DNA from: Halothiobacillus neapolitanus c2
GTDB lineage: Bacteria; Pseudomonadota; Gammaproteobacteria; Halothiobacillales; Halothiobacillaceae
Direction of reading: 5' to 3'
Length of the DNA stretch: 64,000 bases
NCBI RefSeq assembly: GCF_000024765.1
Contig: NC_013422.1
Coordinates: 1,941,501-2,005,500 of the forward strand
Each line of letters opens with the position of its first letter. Within the stretch, counting starts at the first letter, position 1. Below the pieces are notes generated by a model. It did no database searches. It was not told where the DNA came from and saw only the letters and a program-made list of their open reading frames with translations. The translations under genes were made by a program, and so were the position numbers. Positions 34,171 through 57,872 of the stretch are shown piece after piece.

Positions 34171-35220
34171 ATGGCAGAACAACGCGGTATTGATTCCCTT
34201 CTTACGTTTTCAGTAAAAAACGGCGCCTCAGATCTTCATCTGTCTGCCGGTGAGCAGCCTCGCGTGCGGATCGACGGCGATGTGCGCAAAGTCAACGTGC
34301 CCGTTATGGAGCACAAAGACGTGCACGCCATGGTGTACGACATCATGAACGACAAGCAACGCAAGGAATACGAAGATAATCTTGAGGTGGATTTTTCGTT
34401 CGAACTTCCCGGCGTGGCTCGCTTCCGGGTTAACGCATTCAACCAGAACCGCGGAGCGGCTGCGGTATTTCGAACCATTCCCAGTGAAATCCTATCTCTT
34501 GAACAATTGGCCACGCCAAGTGTGTTCAAGGATTTGTGCCTGTTTCCGCGCGGCATCGTGCTGGTCACCGGCCCGACGGGTTCCGGTAAATCAACGACTC
34601 TGGCCGCGATGATCGATTACATCAACGATAATCGTAACGACCACATTCTGACGATCGAAGACCCGATCGAATTCGTTCACAACAGTAAAAAGTGCCTGAT
34701 CAACCAACGTGAAGTGCATCGCGATACCCACAGTTTCAATGCGGCACTTCGCTCGGCCTTACGCGAAGATCCCGATGTGATTCTGGTCGGCGAGTTGCGC
34801 GATCTGGAAACCATCCGTCTGGCGCTCACCGCAGCGGAAACCGGCCACCTGGTGTTTGCGACCTTGCACACAAGTTCTGCCGCCAAAACCATCGACCGCG
34901 TGGTGGATGTGTTCCCCGCTGCGGAGAAAGATATGGTTCGTTCGATGCTGTCAGAATCACTACGCGCTGTAATCTCCCAAACACTGCTCAAGAAAATCGG
35001 TGGTGGGCGGATTGCTGCGCACGAGATCATGCTGGGCAGCCCGGCGATTCGTAACCTGATCCGTGAAAACAAAATCGCCCAAATGTACTCGGCCATTCAA
35101 ACCGGCCAAACACAGGGCATGCAGACACTCGATCAGAACTTGCAGCAGCTCGTCAAACGCGGGCTGGTCGCTAAAGACGAAGCCCGTGCCAGAGCACAAA
35201 ACAAAACGGACTTCATGTAA
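34171..35220 (+). CDS. pilT: type IV pilus retraction ATPase PilT
   Basis: A 349-residue hexameric ATPase that depolymerises the pilus. Motifs are Walker A GPTGSGKS (134-141), Asp box ILTIEDPIEF, the Walker B-like DVILVGELRD, the HLVFATLHT histidine box and the PilT-specific AIRNLIREN near residue 290. It is divergent from yggS and heads a row of three PilT/PilU-type genes. Confidence 0.97.
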   Translation: MAEQRGIDSLLTFSVKNGASDLHLSAGEQPRVRIDGDVRKVNVPVMEHKDVHAMVYDIMNDKQRKEYEDNLEVDFSFELPGVARFRVNAFNQNRGAAAVFRTIPSEILSLEQLATPSVFKDLCLFPRGIVLVTGPTGSGKSTTLAAMIDYINDNRNDHILTIEDPIEFVHNSKKCLINQREVHRDTHSFNAALRSALREDPDVILVGELRDLETIRLALTAAETGHLVFATLHTSSAAKTIDRVVDVFPAAEKDMVRSMLSESLRAVISQTLLKKIGGGRIAAHEIMLGSPAIRNLIRENKIAQMYSAIQTGQTQGMQTLDQNLQQLVKRGLVAKDEARARAQNKTDFM

Positions 35221-35273
35221 CTTCTTCACTAAGATCAAAGACGTTATATCCACACACCAAGGAACGCGCATTC

Positions 35274-36419
35274 ATGGATCGCCAGCAAGCAGCTAACTAC
35301 GTTCAGGGCTTATTACGCAAAGCAGTGGAGCTTGATGCCTCCGACCTATTCGTAACGGTAGGCGCCCCACCGAGTGCAAAAATCAACGGGGAAATCACCC
35401 ACCTGACCGAAACAAGCTTGTCGACCAACCATACCCAAATGTTGGTTCGGTCGATCATGACCGACAAGCAGATCGCCTCGTTTGAAGAAACGCGCGAAGC
35501 GAATTTCGCGATTTCTCTGCCCGGTGTCGCCCGCTTCCGTGTCAATGCGTTCATGCAGCGCGGCAGTGTGGGGATGGTTCTGCGGATGATTCGATCCGAC
35601 GTGCCCAAATTCTCCGAATTGTTATTACCAGAAATCCTCGAAACCATTTCCATGACCAAACGTGGCTTGGTGATTTTCGTTGGCGCGACCAGCTCGGGGA
35701 AGTCGACCTCGCTTGCTGCCATGCTCGATTACCGCAACGAAAACTCGGCAGGCCACATTGTTACCATCGAAGACCCGATTGAATACGTGCACCGACACAA
35801 AGGTTGCCTTGTGACCCAGCGTGAAGTGGGCGTGGACACCGATACGTTCGAATCGGCGTTGAAAAACACCCTTCGACAAGCGCCAGATGTCATCCTGATT
35901 GGCGAAATCAGGGATCGCGAAACGATGGATCATGCCATTGCCTTCGCCGAAACCGGGCATCTTTGCCTGGCTACGCTGCACGCCAACAACACCAATCAGG
36001 CACTGGACCGCATCATCAACTTCTTTCCGGAAGAACGTCGCCATCAACTGCTGATGGACCTTTCCCTGAACCTGAAATCGGTTGTTTCCCAACGGCTGCT
36101 GCGCAAGGAAGACGGTAACGGCCGCGTTCCAGCGGTCGAAGTGTTGATCAACACGCCATTGATCGGCGACCTGATCTTCAAGGGCGACGTGCACGAAATC
36201 AAGGAAGTGATGAAACGCTCCCGCGAACACGGCATGCAAACTTTCGACCAAGCGTTGCTGGATCTGTACGACGAAGGCCTGGTGTCCTTCCAGGAAGCCC
36301 TGCGCAATGCGGATTCACAAAACGACCTTCGCCTTAATATCAAACTGCACAGTCGTCGCGGCCTACCGAAGGACTTCGAGGATGGGAACGATCAATTGCG
36401 CGTTGAAAGTGATGATTGA
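35274..36419 (+). CDS. pilU: PilU-type pilus retraction ATPase
   Basis: A 381-residue PilT paralogue. The Walker A reads GATSSGKS (137-144), as in PilU rather than the PilT GPTGSGKS. The Asp and His boxes and Walker B-like VILIGEIRD are intact, and it has a charged C-terminal tail. In other bacteria PilU forms a second ring on PilT and adds retraction force. It lies 53 bp after pilT with an acceptable site (CAAGGAAC). Confidence 0.95.
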   Translation: MDRQQAANYVQGLLRKAVELDASDLFVTVGAPPSAKINGEITHLTETSLSTNHTQMLVRSIMTDKQIASFEETREANFAISLPGVARFRVNAFMQRGSVGMVLRMIRSDVPKFSELLLPEILETISMTKRGLVIFVGATSSGKSTSLAAMLDYRNENSAGHIVTIEDPIEYVHRHKGCLVTQREVGVDTDTFESALKNTLRQAPDVILIGEIRDRETMDHAIAFAETGHLCLATLHANNTNQALDRIINFFPEERRHQLLMDLSLNLKSVVSQRLLRKEDGNGRVPAVEVLINTPLIGDLIFKGDVHEIKEVMKRSREHGMQTFDQALLDLYDEGLVSFQEALRNADSQNDLRLNIKLHSRRGLPKDFEDGNDQLRVESDD

Positions 36420-36521
36420 TTCCCTTTCCAAATAGCCATCGCCTGGCCCACGCGCCAAAATGATCAAATAGACAAATCATAGTATCGTCGTCCAGCCCGA
36501 CGATTTTGTAAGGAAGCAAAA

Positions 36522-37685
36522 ATGAACGAATCCGCTCTCGACCCCTTTCTGAAGCTGCTGGCTGAAAAGGAAGGCTCGGACTTGTATTTCAGTACCGGTG
36601 CGTTGCCTGCGGTCAAAATTCAGGGCGAATTGCGATTCATCGGCAAGGAACGGCTCAAGCCGGGCCAGGTCGAGGGTTATGCAAAATCCATCCTCAGCCC
36701 CGAACAAACTGATGCGTTCTATCGCGATCTGGAACTCAACCTGGCATTAAGCCGCCCGTCCCTTGGCCGATTCCGCGTCAACATTTTCATGCAGCGAGGC
36801 GAATGGTCCATGGTGATTCGCTTTATCAAGAGCGAAATCCCGCGTATTGCCGACCTCAATCTCCCGCAAGTCATCGAAAAACTGGTTGAAGAACGCCGCG
36901 GATTGATTTTGGTGGTGGGTGCCACCGGCTCAGGCAAATCAACCACGCTCGCCGCCATGATTGATTACCGGGCAGAAGCGCGGCCCGGACACATCCTGAC
37001 CATTGAAGATCCGATGGAGTACGCCTTTAGGCACAGAAACTCCGTTGTCAACCAACGCGAAGTCGGTGTCGATACGCACAGCTACGCCGCCGCTCTGAAA
37101 GAAGCACTGCGCGAAGCGCCAGACGTCATCATGATCGGCGAGGTGCGTGACAAGGCCACCATGGAACATGCACTGGCCTACGCCGATACCGGTCATTTAT
37201 GCGTATCGACGCTTCATGCGACCAATGCTCATCAGGCACTGGACCGAATCATTCGATTCTTCCCTCCGGAATCGAGAGATCAGTTATTGATGGATCTCTC
37301 CTTGAATCTGCGCGCAATCATCTCCCAGCGCCTTGTCATCGGCAGCCAGGGGATGCGTGTGCCGGCCGTTGAAATCATGGTCAATACACCGTTCATCGCC
37401 GATCTGATTAAACGAGGCGAGATTGACGAGATGAAAGAAGCCATGGAGAAAAACGAACTGGAAGGCTCGCAAACTTTCGACATGTCTCTGCACGCGCTAT
37501 GGAAGGCCGGCAACATCGAACGCGAAGAAGCGTTAAAAGCAGCAGACAGCCGAGCCAACCTGGAATGGCGGATGAACTTTGGCGCGGGGAAAGATGAACT
37601 CCGAGCCTCTGCCGCGCAGGCATCCACAAAGAACACCATGAAATCCAGCGCCACGCATGACGGTGAGCTACCTCCGCTGGATTGA
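36522..37685 (+). CDS. second PilU-type ATPase (third PilT-family gene)
   Basis: A 387-residue PilT/PilU paralogue with complete ATPase motifs: Walker A GATGSGKS (133-140), LTIEDPMEY, VIMIGEVRD and CVSTLHATN. Its sequence sides with PilU (QRGEWSMVIRFIKSEIP, NQREVGVDTHSY). It has a distinct polar C-terminal tail of about 40 residues. It follows pilU by about 100 bp with its own ribosome site and is followed by a terminator. A third tandem copy is unusual and suggests specialised retraction. Confidence 0.93.
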   Translation: MNESALDPFLKLLAEKEGSDLYFSTGALPAVKIQGELRFIGKERLKPGQVEGYAKSILSPEQTDAFYRDLELNLALSRPSLGRFRVNIFMQRGEWSMVIRFIKSEIPRIADLNLPQVIEKLVEERRGLILVVGATGSGKSTTLAAMIDYRAEARPGHILTIEDPMEYAFRHRNSVVNQREVGVDTHSYAAALKEALREAPDVIMIGEVRDKATMEHALAYADTGHLCVSTLHATNAHQALDRIIRFFPPESRDQLLMDLSLNLRAIISQRLVIGSQGMRVPAVEIMVNTPFIADLIKRGEIDEMKEAMEKNELEGSQTFDMSLHALWKAGNIEREEALKAADSRANLEWRMNFGAGKDELRASAAQASTKNTMKSSATHDGELPPLD

Positions 37686-37977: not shown

Positions 37978-38097
37978 GGGCACCTCGAAATACCCGTGAT
38001 TCGTCGTTCCCGCGAAAGCAGGAACCCAGAAAAATCAAGGCGCTGGATTCCCGCCTACGCGGGAATGACGGGTTTTTCTAACTTCCCAATAGTGCCC
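37978..38097. repeat. palindromic dispersed repeat, copy 1 (MITE-like)
   Basis: About 120 bp nearly identical to 57763-57872; roughly 96 of the first 99 positions match. It holds two convergent hairpin motifs of the type CGTTCCCGCGAAAGC-GGAA and ATTCCCGCCTACGCGGGAAT. Its ends are partly inverted (GGGCAC and GTGCCC). This is the widespread intergenic nonautonomous palindrome family of proteobacteria. Copy 1 has extra bases near its right end and sits between the pilU-like gene and fccA. Confidence 0.9.
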
Positions 38098-38557
38098 CTC
38101 ATGCTTGTTCAGCAAACGACTGAATTTATTTTTTGGGTGCGTTGAATAACGCCACCACGACATTTCAAAGGGTGTATCTCGGGATATCCGAGCACAGCAC
38201 CACCCCACCTCAATTATAAGAAATATCTATAGCAATCCCCGTAAAGAACCCAATCAACCGACATCACGTCGCGCTAACAACAAATATCCTCATGAATATC
38301 GAAGTCAATAAATAGCACGTAAAACCATACATAATGGGGGAAAGGGCGATTTTCGACGCCCAGCCATCCGAATTGTCATAAATAGAATTTTGTCGATATT
38401 TTTCTTTATTAATAAATAAATCTTATCTAAAATAATCTCTGATGGATGAGCAGATCGGGGCAATCAGGTCGCAATTTCAACCGGGCAAGCTTTCTGGCAA
38501 AGCAAGCCAATGCGCGATCGACTCATCGAGTAACTCCAACAAAGAGGTATGTCTGAC
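38098..38557 (+). other. AT-rich leader/promoter region of the fcc locus
   Basis: About 460 bp upstream of fccA, with a marked A/T rise between about 38200 and 38450 compared with the genes on either side. It contains a small hairpin (GGGCG and CGCCC, 38344-38361) and a T/A-rich run at 38400-38435 that would suit a promoter. No gene is recognised. Strong AT upstream tracts and distance suggest tight control of the fcc operon, but I cannot name the regulator. Confidence 0.5.
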
Positions 38558-38908
38558 ATGAACTACTCGCTTACAGGAATCCTGGGCGCCGCTCTCGGTC
38601 TTGCTCTTCTGCCCCAAACCGCTGCGGCAGAAACAGCAAATAACCTTGCTCAATCCCCCCGCAGCGCCATGCTCGCGCAAACCTGTGCCGGTTGTCATGG
38701 CACGCAAGGTTATCTGCAAAACAACGCATTCATGCCCTTGGCCGGCATGCCGCCGACCCAGTTTGTGACTGCAATGAAGTCGTTTGCCGATGGCTCTCGT
38801 CCATCAACGGTCATGGGACCGCTGGCACAAGCATTTTCGGCGGAGGAAATACAGGCCATGGCCGCGTATTTCGCCCAATTCCCTAAAGACGCAACTGAAG
38901 CGAAGTGA
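38558..38908 (+). CDS. fccA: monoheme cytochrome c subunit of flavocytochrome c sulfide dehydrogenase
   Basis: A 116-residue exported cytochrome c. The signal peptide cleaves after TAAA (about residue 24). Heme is bound at Cys43, Cys46 and His47 (CAGCH), and a Met ligand could come from the MPLAGMPP segment. Only one heme motif is present, as in the small monoheme FccA of green sulfur bacteria, not the diheme form of Allochromatium. The start at 38558 was preferred to 38549 because the AAAGAGG site lies 10 bp before it but only 1 bp before the other. fccB follows 8 bp later. Confidence 0.9.
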   Translation: MNYSLTGILGAALGLALLPQTAAAETANNLAQSPRSAMLAQTCAGCHGTQGYLQNNAFMPLAGMPPTQFVTAMKSFADGSRPSTVMGPLAQAFSAEEIQAMAAYFAQFPKDATEAK

Positions 38909-38916
38909 GGCCGAGC

Positions 38917-40275
38917 ATGAACACAATGAATCGTCGTAATTTCCTGAAACTGACTACCGCGGCAACCGCAGCGGCCGCAACGTTTGGTGCAGGCTCGGCA
39001 GTCGCCAAAGACGCGCCTCATGTCGTTGTGATTGGTGGCGGCGTTGGTGGAGCTACGTTCGCCAAATACATGAAAATGTATTCACCAGAAACCCACGTCA
39101 CCATCATCGAGAAAAACAAGGAATACCAGCGACCCTACGGTTCGAGCGAAGTGATTGTTGGCCGCATCGGGATGAACGACATCACCATTTCCTACGATGA
39201 TCTCAAAAACAAACATGGGGTTAATTTTGTTTTCGATACCGTCACCGGCGTCGATTACGACAAACGTGAAGTCAAAACCGCTGGCGGTACAACCCTTAAA
39301 TACGATCGTTTGCTCGTAGCGCCGGGCGTTTCGTTCGATTACAGCCAGATACCCGGCATGGATTCGAACGAGGCACAATCGAAAATCGTCCACGGTTGGG
39401 ATGCAGGCGACCAACTGCTCACACTGCAAAAACAACTTCAAGCCGTACCGGTCGATGGAACGGTCGTGGTCATCCCGCCGCCAAATCCCTATCGCTGCCC
39501 GCCCGGCCCGTACGAACGTTCCGGCCTGATCGCCCAGTGGTTTATTAATCGCGGCGATAAGAACGCCAAAGTCATCATTCTTGACCCAAAAAACGGCTTT
39601 ACCGTCGATCGCACCATGTTGCAAGCATGGAACCGGCTGTATGGTTTTAATCTGCCAGAAAGCTTCAAGGGTTATACCGCCGAGGAACGCGCCACATTCA
39701 AAAAATACGATACGCACGGAAAAATCCAGTGGGTTACCGCCGACGAAGGCGGCCGCGTAGTCAAAATCGACCCCGCCACGATGACCGTTGAAACCGAAGT
39801 GAGTGTATTCAAGGCCGACATGATCAATCTGATTCCGCCGCTCAAGGCCGGAAAAATCGCTCTGGACATGGGCTTGGCAGATAAATCCGGCTGGTGCCCC
39901 GTCGATCAAAAAACATTCGAATCTACCATCCAGCCGAATGTGCATGTGATCGGGGATGCCTGCATTGCAGGCCAAATGCCTAAATCCGGCTACGCGGCCA
40001 ACAGCCAAGCCAAAGTTGCGGCGCTACAGATCAAGGCGTTGCTGGCAGGCCAAGAACCGATTGAGCCGGCATTCCAGAACACCTGTTACGCACTGGCGGG
40101 CCGAGACGACTATGGCATGTTCGTTGCGGATTTCTTCCGCCTCAAGAACGGCGTCATCACACGCGATGACTATCCGCGTTATCTGCCATTCAAAGCAAGT
40201 GATGCGCAATACCAATTGTCGGCGGTTTATCTGCATGCCTGGATGAAGAGTTTCACAGAAGACATTTTTTCGTGA
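38917..40275 (+). CDS. fccB: flavocytochrome c sulfide dehydrogenase, flavin subunit (FccB/SoxF family)
   Basis: A 452-residue exported flavoprotein that oxidises sulfide and passes electrons to its cytochrome. It has a Tat signal (RRNFLK, 6-11), the FAD Rossmann motif VVVIGGGVGGAT and the redox-active disulfide pair Cys194 (RCPPGPYER) and Cys327 (GWCPVD). GDACIA follows. The position that carries the covalent FAD-linking Cys in Allochromatium reads Pro here (RPYGSSEV), so the flavin is probably held noncovalently. ATG 38917 follows GAGG; a GTG at 38905 is possible. Confidence 0.92.
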   Translation: MNTMNRRNFLKLTTAATAAAATFGAGSAVAKDAPHVVVIGGGVGGATFAKYMKMYSPETHVTIIEKNKEYQRPYGSSEVIVGRIGMNDITISYDDLKNKHGVNFVFDTVTGVDYDKREVKTAGGTTLKYDRLLVAPGVSFDYSQIPGMDSNEAQSKIVHGWDAGDQLLTLQKQLQAVPVDGTVVVIPPPNPYRCPPGPYERSGLIAQWFINRGDKNAKVIILDPKNGFTVDRTMLQAWNRLYGFNLPESFKGYTAEERATFKKYDTHGKIQWVTADEGGRVVKIDPATMTVETEVSVFKADMINLIPPLKAGKIALDMGLADKSGWCPVDQKTFESTIQPNVHVIGDACIAGQMPKSGYAANSQAKVAALQIKALLAGQEPIEPAFQNTCYALAGRDDYGMFVADFFRLKNGVITRDDYPRYLPFKASDAQYQLSAVYLHAWMKSFTEDIFS

Positions 40276-40321
40276 TGAAGGGGTCTTTGCGGTCACCTGT
40301 TACCGACAAAGCAAAATAAAA

Positions 40322-40378
40322 AAAAGGGGCAAGCCTTTCGTGATGGGTCGTTAACCTCACCCAAGCAAAGCCCCTTTT
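40322..40378 (+). terminator. long-loop inverted repeat between fccB and the oxidase-like genes
   Basis: A perfect 9-bp repeat (AAAAGGGGC and GCCCCTTTT; 40322-40330 and 40370-40378) encloses 39 nt with a further small G/C pairing inside. The right arm runs into T-rich DNA, so it may be a partial terminator that lowers expression of the downstream genes, or an RNA-processing site. Confidence 0.5.
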
Positions 40379-40404
40379 CAGTCTTAAAAGACGGGAGTCA
40401 TACG

Positions 40405-41886
40405 ATGGACCTAATTGGTTTATATCCCACCTGGTACGAACCGGGTATCGGCAGCGGCTGGGTGATCGGCATCATCGCCACCATCCATGTGCTTTTCTCA
40501 CACACCGCCGTTGGCGCGGCCCTACTGTTCACTTATCTGGCCTATTTAGGCTATCGTGACGACCGGCCGGAACTGCTCGATTTCATTAAGAAATACGGCC
40601 TGTTCCTGCTGGTCTTCTCTTACATTCTGGGTTCGATTACCGGCCCGGGCATTTGGTATTCGACTACGGTCGGCAGCCCGCGTGGCATTTCGGCACTCAT
40701 CCATAACTTCGTCTGGAAATGGGCGACCGAATGGGTATTCTTCGTCATCGAAGTCGTTGGCGTGTACATGATGGTGTACCTCGTCGGCAAAGTGGATAAA
40801 GCCACCTACCTGCGCATTGCCATTACCTTCGGCATGGCCTCGTTTGCCACCATGTTGGCCATCGTCGGCATTCTATCGTTCATGATGGAACCGGGCATGC
40901 CGGATTGGGCCGAAAAAGGTGGTTATCTGTTGGGCTTCTATGGTGATAACACCTTCGCTCAGTTGGCCATTCGAATTGCCTTCATGTTCACCATGACAGC
41001 GGTAGTTGGCGGCATTGTGGTTGCCGGCTTGAAAGATCAGGTGTTCAAAACCTGGCTGGCTCGCCGCTTGGCCGTTCTGGGTATTGTTTCAACGGTTGTG
41101 GGTATTGCATTTTACCCTTGGTATCTCAACACCTTGCCCGCCCAAGCCCAGATTGTGATGGAAAATCGCATTCCGGATTATTACGGCACGGCGATTTTGA
41201 CGGTCTTGTTGTCAACGATTGCGTACTTTGCATTCACGCTGTTCAAGCCGCGCATGTTGACGGCCTCGATTGCCGGTTTTGCCACCCTGTCGATCTTGAT
41301 CTTGGGCTTGTTCCCCGGTGAAACCATTCGCGAATCGGCACGCAAACCGTTCGTGGCCGGTGAGTACCTGTACTCGAATCAGGTCATCGCCAAAGATGTG
41401 CCCGGCATGACGATCAAATCGGAAATCCCAACGCTGGAAAAAGTCGGCTTTACGCACGCCTCGGTTTTCTGGCCAGAAACGCAGCGTGATATCACAGTCA
41501 ACAACGCGCATGAAGTGGGCCGTACGCTGGCTATCGCCGCCTGCAGTAACTGTCATTCGCTCTCGCCTACCGGCATCCGTCCCATTGCGGGCTATTTTGG
41601 CGGCATGACCGATATCCCACGCATCAAGACGTATCTCTTGGGCGCACTGGCTACCGGCAACACCATGTACATGCCAAAAATCCCGCTGCAAGACAAAGAA
41701 GCGGAAGCACTGGCGCTGTATTTAGCCAGTTTGGCTGACCCGACAGTCGTCGCGCGCTATATCGAAGAAAACAGCAAAACAGCGGATGCACCGCAAAAAG
41801 TGCTGCCAGCCATCGACGATAAAACAGCCGCATCGCCCGTTGCCCGCGCGCATGTTTCTTTCTTAACTACTGGTTCAGAGGAGTAA
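40405..41886 (+). CDS. cytochrome bd-superfamily-like membrane subunit fused to cytochrome c
   Basis: A 493-residue protein with about eight membrane helices in residues 1-300, then a cytochrome c domain with CxxCH at 380-384 (CSNCH). Helical His28, His33 and His100 and Glu109/Glu116 (TEWVFFVIEV) recall the heme- and proton-site residues of CydA, and RESARKPF echoes the CydA RxPW region. It lacks an evident quinol-binding loop. It resembles cytochrome bd superfamily members with a C-terminal heme c described from genome surveys. Electron donor, hemes and acceptor are unproved. It starts 129 bp after fccB with site GGGAG and its stop is 4 bp before subunit II. Confidence 0.7.
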   Translation: MDLIGLYPTWYEPGIGSGWVIGIIATIHVLFSHTAVGAALLFTYLAYLGYRDDRPELLDFIKKYGLFLLVFSYILGSITGPGIWYSTTVGSPRGISALIHNFVWKWATEWVFFVIEVVGVYMMVYLVGKVDKATYLRIAITFGMASFATMLAIVGILSFMMEPGMPDWAEKGGYLLGFYGDNTFAQLAIRIAFMFTMTAVVGGIVVAGLKDQVFKTWLARRLAVLGIVSTVVGIAFYPWYLNTLPAQAQIVMENRIPDYYGTAILTVLLSTIAYFAFTLFKPRMLTASIAGFATLSILILGLFPGETIRESARKPFVAGEYLYSNQVIAKDVPGMTIKSEIPTLEKVGFTHASVFWPETQRDITVNNAHEVGRTLAIAACSNCHSLSPTGIRPIAGYFGGMTDIPRIKTYLLGALATGNTMYMPKIPLQDKEAEALALYLASLADPTVVARYIEENSKTADAPQKVLPAIDDKTAASPVARAHVSFLTTGSEE

Positions 41887-41890
41887 CCCG

Positions 41891-43120
41891 ATGGACGCTT
41901 CCATGCTCTACGCGCTGCGCGACCCCCTTGGGGTTCCGGCTGCGCCCATTATCTTCCTGCTTTTAGGCGTATTGACCTGGGCGTTGCACATTGCAGCCGT
42001 CCACGTTCTGTTGGGCGCATCAGGTTTGACTTTATTCGGCTCGCTGAACAAAAACCCGCATTGGCGCCGCCTGGCCGATGCCATGGTCAGCACCGCAAAA
42101 ATCGCGGTTTCCGTTGCCATCGTGTTAGGCGTGGCGCCCTTGCTGTTCGTGCAGGTTATTTACGATCCGTTCTGGTACACCTCCAACGTGCTATCGGCTT
42201 GGTGGGTGATCGGGTTCATCGCGTTTTTGATAATCGGCAGTTTGCTGCTGTTTACCTTCTACGCCTTGAATTCAAGCATGAAAACCCAGCCCAAAACCCG
42301 CTGCCCCGGTGCCATGCTGGCGGCAATCGCGTTCTTCTTGGTTGTGGGCTTCATCATGCATGCCCTATCGGTGCAGATGTTAAAGCCGGAAAAGTGGATG
42401 GAATGGTACGCCCCCGGCGGCATTGTTGACGCATCAGGACGCGCATTACATGCCTACAATTTCTGGCGCTTTGGCTTCTTTATTTCGCTGTCTGCGCCCG
42501 TTATCGGCCTGTGGCTGATTGCCTACCGTCGTTACCTGCTCGGTCGTGAAAACGAAGATCAAGGCTACTTAGCCTTCGTTCGTCGGCTGGCCATGCCGCT
42601 GATCAGCATTGGCGGCATCATCGCCTTGGCGCTGTATGCCGGCTGGATGGCTACCCTGGACCAAAACGTTGCAAGTTTCGCGCTTAGCTTCTGGTCCATC
42701 ATCACCGTTGCCATGCTCCTGCTCGCGGTCGCCGTGCCCTTTGTGCTGAACAAAAAGCTCGATACGGGTTTCTGGGGCTATGTTCCTTTTGCAGTCGGCG
42801 CGGTGGCGTTGATTGTTGTCGGCGCTATGCGTGAAGCCTTGCGTTGGGTCACGCTGTATGGCGTCCATGGCTACAACGCGCTCGACTACAAACTGCACAT
42901 GGATTGGTACAGCACCCTGATGTTCTTCCTAACCTTTGCGGCCATTGGCGGCGCCGTGTTGGCGTACCTGCTCACCGTTTCATGGAAAGCGGGGCAAACC
43001 AAAGGGATGTATGTCGCCTCACCGATGGTCAATCGCATGGGCACGATCGGCATCTCCCTGCTGGCCGTGTGGATTATTCAGTACTTCGCCATTGGTCTCT
43101 GGGTGGCCTACAGCGGTTAA
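41891..43120 (+). CDS. polytopic membrane subunit II of the oxidase-like complex
   Basis: A 409-residue protein with about ten membrane helices and no CxxCH. His53 and His58 (WALHIAAVHVLL) parallel the paired histidines of the first subunit's N-terminus, and MREALRW near residue 315 echoes the REPW-type motif of the cytochrome bd superfamily. So both subunits may be distant homologues of each other. The role as the pseudo-symmetric partner is an inference. The start lies 4 bp after the first subunit's stop with a GAGGAG site inside that gene's end. Confidence 0.65.
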   Translation: MDASMLYALRDPLGVPAAPIIFLLLGVLTWALHIAAVHVLLGASGLTLFGSLNKNPHWRRLADAMVSTAKIAVSVAIVLGVAPLLFVQVIYDPFWYTSNVLSAWWVIGFIAFLIIGSLLLFTFYALNSSMKTQPKTRCPGAMLAAIAFFLVVGFIMHALSVQMLKPEKWMEWYAPGGIVDASGRALHAYNFWRFGFFISLSAPVIGLWLIAYRRYLLGRENEDQGYLAFVRRLAMPLISIGGIIALALYAGWMATLDQNVASFALSFWSIITVAMLLLAVAVPFVLNKKLDTGFWGYVPFAVGAVALIVVGAMREALRWVTLYGVHGYNALDYKLHMDWYSTLMFFLTFAAIGGAVLAYLLTVSWKAGQTKGMYVASPMVNRMGTIGISLLAVWIIQYFAIGLWVAYSG

Positions 43121-43185
43121 TCCTATTTTTCTGAGTTTCACCCGCCGCTCCAACCGAGGCGACGGGCGAATTGGAGTTAAGCATA

Positions 43186-43902
43186 ATGAAAAAAATCACT
43201 TTGGCGTTTTTGTTAAGTCTTGGCAGTGCGAGCTTGGCCGTGGCCGCCGAGCACACGGCGCACGATATTGTTCAGTGGACACCCACCACCTGGGCCGAAG
43301 CGCAACGCGACATGCCGAAAGGCGACGTAGCCGCCGGTGAGAAACTGCACAGCACGATGTTTTGCGCTTCCTGTCATGGCGCAAAGGGAGAGTCGACCAC
43401 CAATAACTGGCCTTCTTTGACCGGACAAAGCGCGGCATACACCTACAAGCAGCTTTTGGATTACAAGAGCCATTTGCGCAACGAAGATGATCGTGCGCAC
43501 ATCATGGTCGTCGTGGCCAAGATGCTCTCCAAGCAAGACATGGCCGATCTAGCCGCTTTTTACGCCGATCAACCATTGCCCTGCCCCAACGGCCTGTCCA
43601 AGCCGGCACCATCCTTGGTTACGGTTGGTGATCCCAAACGCCTGATTACCCCATGCGCCGCCTGTCATGGCGCCAACGGACAGGGCGGCGTCAACGAAAC
43701 CACGGCTCTGCGCGGCATGCCAAGAGACTACTTCATCCGCACCATGGAAATGTTCCGCGAAGGACATCGTAACAACGACACCTTCAAAGGCATGAGCCAA
43801 TTCGCCAAGCCCCTGACCGATCAGGAGATTGCCATGCTCGCGGATTACTATGCCTGTGATGGCAAAAAAGAAACCGCCAGCAACCAAGCCAGCGCGAAAT
43901 AA
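43186..43902 (+). CDS. diheme cytochrome c4-like electron carrier
   Basis: A 238-residue periplasmic cytochrome with a signal peptide (cleavage after AVAA, about residue 21) and two class I domains. Heme motifs are CASCH (60-64) and CAACH (157-161); likely axial Met residues lie in AKMLSK and KGMSQF. The layout is that of cytochrome c4. Last gene of the fccAB-oxidase row and followed by a terminator, it likely shuttles electrons between FccAB and the membrane complex. ATG 43186 was chosen for the GGAG site 11 bp before. Confidence 0.9.
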   Translation: MKKITLAFLLSLGSASLAVAAEHTAHDIVQWTPTTWAEAQRDMPKGDVAAGEKLHSTMFCASCHGAKGESTTNNWPSLTGQSAAYTYKQLLDYKSHLRNEDDRAHIMVVVAKMLSKQDMADLAAFYADQPLPCPNGLSKPAPSLVTVGDPKRLITPCAACHGANGQGGVNETTALRGMPRDYFIRTMEMFREGHRNNDTFKGMSQFAKPLTDQEIAMLADYYACDGKKETASNQASAK

Positions 43903-43925
43903 CTTTTGTTGGGATGCTCAACGAT

Positions 43926-43955
43926 AAAAAACCAAAGCAGCTGATTTGGTTTTTG
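43926..43955. terminator. bidirectional terminator after the cytochrome operon
   Basis: Inverted repeat AAAACCAAA and TTTGGTTTT with an 8-nt centre. A run of A precedes it and a run of T follows, so it would work on either strand. It is 24 bp after the cytochrome c4-like stop. Confidence 0.75.
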
Positions 43956-44049
43956 TAATGAGCACATCCTTCACTAATTATTCAAGAAGGGCGCCTTTGA
44001 CTGAATCGAAGATTTCGATTTAAGAAGTGTCTTGTCGTTCCCTCATCAC

Positions 44050-44080
44050 AATCCCGCCAGTGCTTGACGGGATTTTTTTG
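44050..44080 (+). terminator. rho-independent terminator (second) downstream of the cytochrome operon
   Basis: A 7-bp stem (AATCCCG and CGGGATT) with an 11-nt loop runs into seven T residues. It is 148 bp after the cytochrome gene and before the small hypothetical gene; a short RNA between the two terminators is possible but unsupported. Confidence 0.7.
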
Positions 44081-57762: not shown

Positions 57763-57872
57763 GGGCACCTCGAAATACCCGTGATTCGTCGTTCCCGCGA
57801 AAGCGGGAGCCCAGAAAAATCAAGGCGCTGGATTTCCGCCTACGCGGGAATGACGGGTTTTTCGAAGTGCCC
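57763..57872. repeat. palindromic dispersed repeat, copy 2 (MITE-like)
   Basis: About 110 bp nearly identical to 37978-38097, with terminal inverted repeats GGGCACCTCGAAA and TTTCGAAGTGCCC (12 of 13 pairing). Inside are the two hairpin motifs (CGCGAAAGCGGG type and CGCCTACGCGGG type). It lies between the Pat-like and HDAC-like gene starts. Confidence 0.9.

Follow-up and report, generated by a model that had tools for sequence, protein, structure and literature searches.

Flavocytochrome c sulfide dehydrogenase (FCSD) is usually placed in a scheme where its electrons pass to a soluble cytochrome c and then to an unspecified oxidase. Murali, Gennis and Hemp are said to have described, in 2021, a heme-c family of the cytochrome bd superfamily, OR-C, with a CydA-like core, a C-terminal heme c and no quinol loop. 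The OR family names are used in PMC10839748, PMC11707229 and PMC12342949, where the naming is dated to 2021. In E. coli, the half-maximal inhibitory concentration (IC50) of H2S is 1.1 uM for cytochrome bo3, whereas bd-I and bd-II are insensitive (PMC8657789). Thiobacillus sp. W5 has yielded a purified monoheme FCSD that is bound to the membrane (Visser 1997, as cited in PMC5744179 and PMC8056087).

We analysed a stretch of 64,000 nucleotides (positions 1941501-2005500, hereafter the window) of the 2,582,886-base single-contig genome of Halothiobacillus neapolitanus c2. It contains a cluster of five genes encoding the FCSD subunits FccA and FccB, two membrane proteins, OrA and OrB, and a c4-like diheme cytochrome c. 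We consider it probable, at roughly 0.7, that this cluster encodes a sulfide:cytochrome c:oxygen chain leading from FccAB to OrAB, a complex of the bd type. An earlier note, made from the letters alone (the original prediction), had proposed that FccAB is coupled via cytochrome c to a bd-like complex. Fold, residues and gene linkage support this interpretation, with O2 as the likely acceptor. All five genes are present in the given order on one strand, as had been claimed (open reading frame (ORF) listing, Pfam and NCBIfam scans).

The membrane subunits OrA and OrB

The AlphaFold2 models of both membrane proteins (mean pLDDT 80.3 for OrA and 77.7 for OrB) have the CydA fold. The OrA model matches CydA chains at Z 24.6-27.2 (best 7ose_A, Z 27.2, 312 residues, root-mean-square deviation (rmsd) 3.2; VIA), and the OrB model at Z 22.6-25.5 (best 9r2g_A, Z 25.5, 336 residues, rmsd 3.9; VIA). 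For both models, the best-matching chain is CydA and not CydB in all ten bd entries listed, which rules out OrB as a CydB. The profile of 40 OrA rows finds 5doq_A (E 1.7e-4) and matches canonical CydA with E 1e-4 at full length and 3.5e-6 in the N-terminal half. A paralogous OrA of group B in genome G010 is above the Pfam CydA cut-off (28.4 vs 26.2 bits); two group-A OrA rows score 18 bits, under that cut-off. OrA is a CydA homologue. Since both models match this fold and the OrA and OrB profiles match each other across 296 columns (E 1.3e-7), OrB is a second CydA-fold subunit and OrAB consists of two CydA-type subunits. Thus the suggested relation to the bd superfamily was borne out by structure for both membrane proteins and by sequence profiles too for OrA. 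The original prediction of a bd-like two-subunit complex had missed the likeness of the second subunit to CydA instead of CydB.

The next folds for the two models are alternative complex III (Z about 17) and polysulfide reductase (Z about 15). This weaker likeness to the membrane subunits of both (Z 14.6-17.8) would suit OrAB as a cytochrome c:quinone oxidoreductase lifting FCSD electrons to the quinone pool for reverse electron flow, and a new kind of quinone site is conceivable from sequence. However, CydA is the closest fold by 7-10 Z units, the heme-d His and an active-site Glu are kept, the quinol loop is absent, and a heme-copper oxidase stands in the corresponding place in two genomes (G013, G017). 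We regard quinone reduction by OrAB as very improbable.

Throughout the alignment (40/40 OrA and 9/9 CydA rows), H28 of OrA stands at the position of the heme-d His of CydA and E116 at that of the second active-site Glu. E310 lies in an invariant RExxRKP motif, which matches the CydA motif ExGRQPW in a 15-column local profile alignment (E 0.009). The last residue pair in four structural alignments with the E. coli protein, 327-462 or 326-461, implies the pair 310-445 if the helix is gap-free. The heme b595 Glu is probably kept in OrA as E310. The ligands of heme b558, which we take to be His186 and Met393 in the numbering of E. coli CydA, have no counterparts: there is no His at or near the first position in OrA, and a gap at the second. 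The loop between transmembrane helices (TM) 6 and 7 has 17 residues in OrA, as opposed to about 75-145 in the nine canonical CydAs of the alignment. With both b558 ligands missing and so short a loop, OrA no longer has a quinol site of the CydA type, and the absence of a quinol loop had been predicted correctly. Of the heme-ligating residues that the original prediction singled out for checking, H28 and E116 are kept throughout and E310 was recognised by motif and local alignment only; the b558 His is not kept. OrB may hold a heme as well, judging from its sequence: H33 is found in 39/39 OrB rows, and E315 and R318 are invariant or nearly so.

OrA has eight predicted TM helices. It has four Lys and Arg residues on the N-terminal side vs eight on the other side, and therefore both termini are probably outside, placing the heme c on the periplasmic side together with FccAB. 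FccAB and the c4-like cytochrome carry export signals, the signal peptide of the latter being judged by eye. The C-terminal CxxCH noted earlier on the membrane subunit was confirmed as CSNCH, whose two Cys and His are invariant. The cytochrome c match of the OrA tail (17.3-17.5 bits) is under the Pfam cut-off.

Linkage of OrA with FccAB and the c4-like gene

The first two genes encode an FCSD whose FccA subunit is monoheme. FccB is above the Pfam cut-offs for FCSD_central, FCSD-flav_bind and the twin-arginine translocation (Tat) signal, and its nearest solved relatives are 5n1t, 3vrd and 1fcd (E 5e-100 to 1e-99). The cytochrome c match of FccA is just under the cut-off (26.8 vs 27 bits), and a single CxxCH is present in 72/74 FccA ORFs from the module. 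Both redox cysteines of FccB are kept. In the PDB alignment, it has Pro where 3vrd has Cys at the position linking flavin adenine dinucleotide (FAD), presumably the equivalent of Cys42 in 1fcd. Among 72 FccBs linked to OrA, this position is occupied by Pro in 45, Cys in 23, Gly in 3 and Ala in 1.

The gene neighbourhood was surveyed in 79 loci, taken from the best 80 of 374 relatives and leaning to close kin. They come from sulfur oxidisers and related Gamma- and Betaproteobacteria, e.g. Thiomicrorhabdus, Thiomonas, Thiothrix, Hydrogenophaga, Rhodoferax and Thiocapsa. FccB adjoins OrA in 71 loci, which rules out a local accident; the other eight reach a contig edge 0-1738 bases past OrA. All five genes are on one strand in 69/79 loci, a spread among sulfur oxidisers that the original prediction had missed. 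The order is OrA-OrB-FccA-FccB-c4 in 63 of these and FccA-FccB-OrA-OrB-c4 in six, the close kin of the window. That the same genes stay together although their order differs speaks for a functional bond more than for simple inheritance of a shared stretch of DNA. In one locus (L085), a second OrA and OrB with scores equal to the first begin another copy of the module 5.8 kb downstream, through tandem duplication or an assembly artefact.

In a tree of 90 rows, a branch with SH-aLRT 92 sets apart the 72 linked OrAs, with that of G552 as the nearest outsider; two fragments (L091, L112) were dropped from this tree, and six contig-edge loci were placed in no group. In a sample of 57 genomes of relatives, this OrA was found in 13 genomes of the Halothiobacillaceae sample, all 13 with an FCSD, and 15 others have an FCSD and not this OrA. 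In a phylum sample of 398 genomes there were 20 matches at E 0.001, of which only those of the genome itself, G139 and G242 are near full length. Separately, a distant OR-C-like pair was seen in L139 and L140 (family f75 of another class), and the OrB of L140 also has a CxxCH.

The FccB tree has 116 rows. One clade (SH-aLRT 100) unites all 72 of the linked FccBs with a second copy from L049 and five of those taken as unlinked; long branches are L237/L238 and L235/L236/L239. Eleven loci taken as linked or, in the case of L190 (in G004, at a contig edge), presumed linked were dropped before counting, as were three FccBs of less than 350 residues (probably L180, L186 and L221, to judge from the scores); that of G550 was added again as L243, and two 62-residue pieces of G015 are absent. 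The possibility that FccBs of the linked type occur only together with OrA was rejected: 72 linked and 29 unlinked sequences split cleanly (support 99), but 14 added FCSDs put five inside the clade. Three of the five are stand-alone FccA-FccB pairs in Halothiobacillus genomes (L232-L234; G003 and G006 also carry the full module).

The other two come from G013 and G017, both without OrA. Here the genes downstream of FccAB are COX2, COX1, one for a c4-like diheme cytochrome and then a large ORF (L230, 6456-13839; L231, 6389-13849), which in L230 (G013) is a metal ATPase (Pfam). In L022, genes for COX1, a c4-like cytochrome, a metal (Cu) ATPase and SCO1 lie directly upstream of fccA-fccB-orA-orB-c4 (Pfam). 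L024 and L216 have genes of like size and order upstream, judged by size and order alone. Members of this FccAB subfamily are thus found beside two unrelated kinds of terminal oxidase. The original prediction correctly placed the FCSD beside a bd-like pair and had missed the heme-copper neighbours. These neighbours weaken the view that FccAB serves only OrAB and strengthen the view that OrAB is an oxidase: a heme-copper oxidase beside FccAB in genomes without OrA points to an oxidase role for OrAB. Because the two effects oppose each other, the odds of the proposed chain are unchanged.

The fifth gene encodes an exported protein with two cytochrome c domains (Pfam; signal peptide by eye). In G550 (L213, 6367-8184, minus strand), a c4-like diheme domain (c4 query E 6e-22) forms part of an OrB homologue of 606 residues. 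As far as sequence goes, this fusion points to the c4-like cytochrome as a direct partner of OrAB.

The proposed chain and its weighing

In the chain that we favour, periplasmic FccAB would oxidise sulfide to sulfur or polysulfide. Electrons would pass from FAD to the heme c of FccA, then to the c4-like cytochrome, then to the heme c on the periplasmic tail of OrA, which might also receive them directly from FccA; the two-heme site of OrA, presumably of d or b type, would hand them to O2. OrB would be a CydA-like partner in place of CydB, and FccAB would dock on the complex. Quinone and the bc1 complex would be bypassed, and energy would be conserved by charge separation if the scalar protons come from the cytoplasm as in cytochrome bd. 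Such a chain could respire sulfide at levels poisoning the other oxidases of the cell, because bd-type oxidases resist sulfide and heme-copper oxidases do not.

Several results weigh against this chain. As single sequences, the membrane part of OrA and the whole of OrB had no useful match in Pfam or NCBIfam, including CydA. The OrB profile failed to match CydA in a direct comparison (E 0.22) and had no PDB profile match, and the relation of OrB to CydA rests on structure and on OrA as an intermediate. The first active-site Glu of CydA has no alignment in OrA: its position is held by H100 (38/40 rows), with E109 adjacent in a gap at an offset of one residue. The whole-length MAFFT alignment missed E310 as the b595 Glu. 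The host genome encodes three COX1 and one canonical CydA, so that OrAB would be an extra branch and not the only oxidase. We know of no biochemical precedent for a bd-type complex fed by a periplasmic cytochrome c. Of 43 FCSDs taken as unlinked, five fall within the OrA-linked FccB clade. In a class sample of 369 genomes, which partly repeats genomes of the locus set (L050, L058, L071, L113), seven of ten OrA matches are linked to fcc and three are not (G552, G550, G659). Finally, seven loci of Halothiobacillaceae (group B, L033-L039) contain a second OR-C-like pair in the order OrA-OrB-monoheme cytochrome c, with fcc in 0/7.

Among the unlinked cases, G552 has OrA-OrB-c4 without fccAB (L212, 5976-9215, minus strand) and an FCSD 537 kb away, G659 has an unlinked OrA relative and no FCSD in the genome, and G008 has a group-B pair and likewise no FCSD. 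Linkage to fcc is therefore the mark of one OrA subfamily, more distant pairs being without it. The original prediction had asked about the same pair in genomes without fcc genes: no tested locus of its own clade is without fcc, but pairs of other clades are unlinked and one of their genomes, G008, has no FCSD at all.

These group-B and G659-type pairs, with the two genomes without any FCSD, are what would be expected if OrAB were a cytochrome c oxidase drawing on the general cytochrome c pool, with fccAB and c4 as no more than co-regulated neighbours that feed the same pool. The occurrence of the FccB subfamily beside a heme-copper oxidase and, in L232-L234, alone, agrees with this too. Yet the linkage in 71/71 testable loci of the clade, in two gene orders, exceeds the need of shared regulation, and such an arrangement seems unlikely to us. 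It is also conceivable that OrAB reduces another small molecule, e.g. nitric oxide, or that its main role is protective, clearing O2 or sulfide, and not energetic. Enzymes of the bd type have detoxifying side roles, and the cell has four other oxidases. However, the strict coupling to FCSD and c4 and the wide spread in lithotrophic sulfur oxidisers argue against it, and we give this explanation hardly any credence.

In its full form, the proposed chain would be one membrane-held, quinone-free sulfide:oxygen oxidoreductase made of FccAB, c4 and OrAB, and the first cytochrome c-fed enzyme of the bd type with an identified physiological donor. We advance this only tentatively, somewhat short of even odds. 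If true, sulfur oxidisers could respire sulfide at concentrations that stop heme-copper oxidases, and the purification of the W5 FCSD as a membrane protein would be explained. The conserved module would name the step after cytochrome c in the FCSD scheme, provide a donor, testable in culturable aerobes, for a branch of the bd superfamily that is uncharacterised, and suggest how sulfide oxidisers keep their respiration from being poisoned. Close relatives in which a heme-copper enzyme takes the place of OrAB provide a natural comparison.

Features of the locus and known systems

The coordinates are collected in Table 1. As noted originally, the leader is relatively AT-rich, with a GC content of 0.41 at 38200-38399 and 0.45 at 38400-38599 vs 0.46-0.60 across the genes. 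A strong terminator had also been claimed. Hairpins are indeed present downstream of the last gene, at 43915-43964 (z -2.46) and at 44050-44074, the latter followed by a T-run (z -1.57), but their strength is no more than plausible, as the terminator consensus scan is at chance level (12 vs a shuffle mean of 8.5, standard deviation 3.2). The promoter consensus scan is at chance level as well (4 vs 4.8 in shuffles). The inverted repeat between fccB and orA folds no better than shuffles.

Table 1. Features of the fcc-or cluster (window positions)
Feature	Position	Strand	Evidence and remarks
FccA, exported monoheme cytochrome c subunit of FCSD	38558..38908	+	one CxxCH; ATG at 38549 is an alternative start
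FccB, FAD subunit of FCSD, Tat signal	38917..40275	+	Pfam; PDB matches; Cys survey
fccB-orA gap, long inverted repeat	40276..40404	+	129 nt; fold z -1.24 vs shuffles
OrA, CydA-fold subunit with C-terminal heme c	40405..41886	+	VIA Z 27.2 to 7ose_A; profile match 5doq_A
OrA H28, aligned to CydA heme-d His	40486..40488	+	40/40 OrA, 9/9 CydA rows
OrA E116, aligned to second active-site Glu of CydA	40750..40752	+	40/40 OrA, 9/9 CydA rows
OrA E310 of RExxRKP, candidate heme b595 ligand (CydA ExGRQPW)	41332..41334	+	local profile alignment; structural-alignment end points
OrA heme c site CSNCH, residues 380-384	41542..41556	+	C380, C383, H384 invariant in 40 rows; M423 is the candidate second ligand
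OrB, second CydA-fold subunit, lacking heme c in this genome	41891..43120	+	VIA Z 25.5 to 9r2g_A; OrA-OrB profiles
c4-like diheme cytochrome c, exported	43186..43902	+	two CxxCH; two Cytochrom_C stretches (Pfam)
Two candidate terminator hairpins	43915..44074	+	folding vs shuffles; consensus scan at chance level

Elsewhere in the window, three tandem ATPases of the PilT/PilU family, each above its NCBIfam cut-off, are encoded at 34171-37685. A palindromic repeat of 25 bases occurs at 38045-38069 and 57830-57854 (0 in 100 shuffles).

No publication joining FCSD to a bd-like complex was found in the literature covered (PMC10952691, PMC10696704, PMC9032823 and the papers cited above among others), most subscription papers and the 2021 OR-C paper being outside that coverage. 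The heme-c relatives of bd were already named in 2021; the link to fcc is possibly new. OrA shares with the OR-C family the CydA-like core, the C-terminal heme c and the lack of a quinol loop, whereas the clade described here is tied to fccAB and a c4-like gene. Canonical CydAB quinol oxidases have in common with OrAB the CydA fold, the heme-d His and an active-site Glu. However, OrAB has neither the quinol loop nor the b558 His, a heme c is added, and a CydA-like subunit replaces CydB. The FCSDs of Allochromatium and Thermochromatium (1fcd, 3vrd) share the FccB fold and the redox Cys pair, but here FccA is monoheme, the FAD-linking Cys is replaced by Pro, and oxidase genes are attached. The OR-N complex CydAA' of Nitrospirota and Nitrospinota likewise has two CydA-type subunits and a proposed cytochrome c donor (PMC10839748, PMC12342949); it differs in lineage and linkage, and in our case OrA carries the heme c. 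The FCSD of Thiobacillus sp. W5 (Visser 1997, as cited above) resembles the present one in being monoheme, membrane-associated and from a related sulfur oxidiser. The five-gene module offers it a membrane partner, and its membrane anchor may be a complex of the OrAB type.

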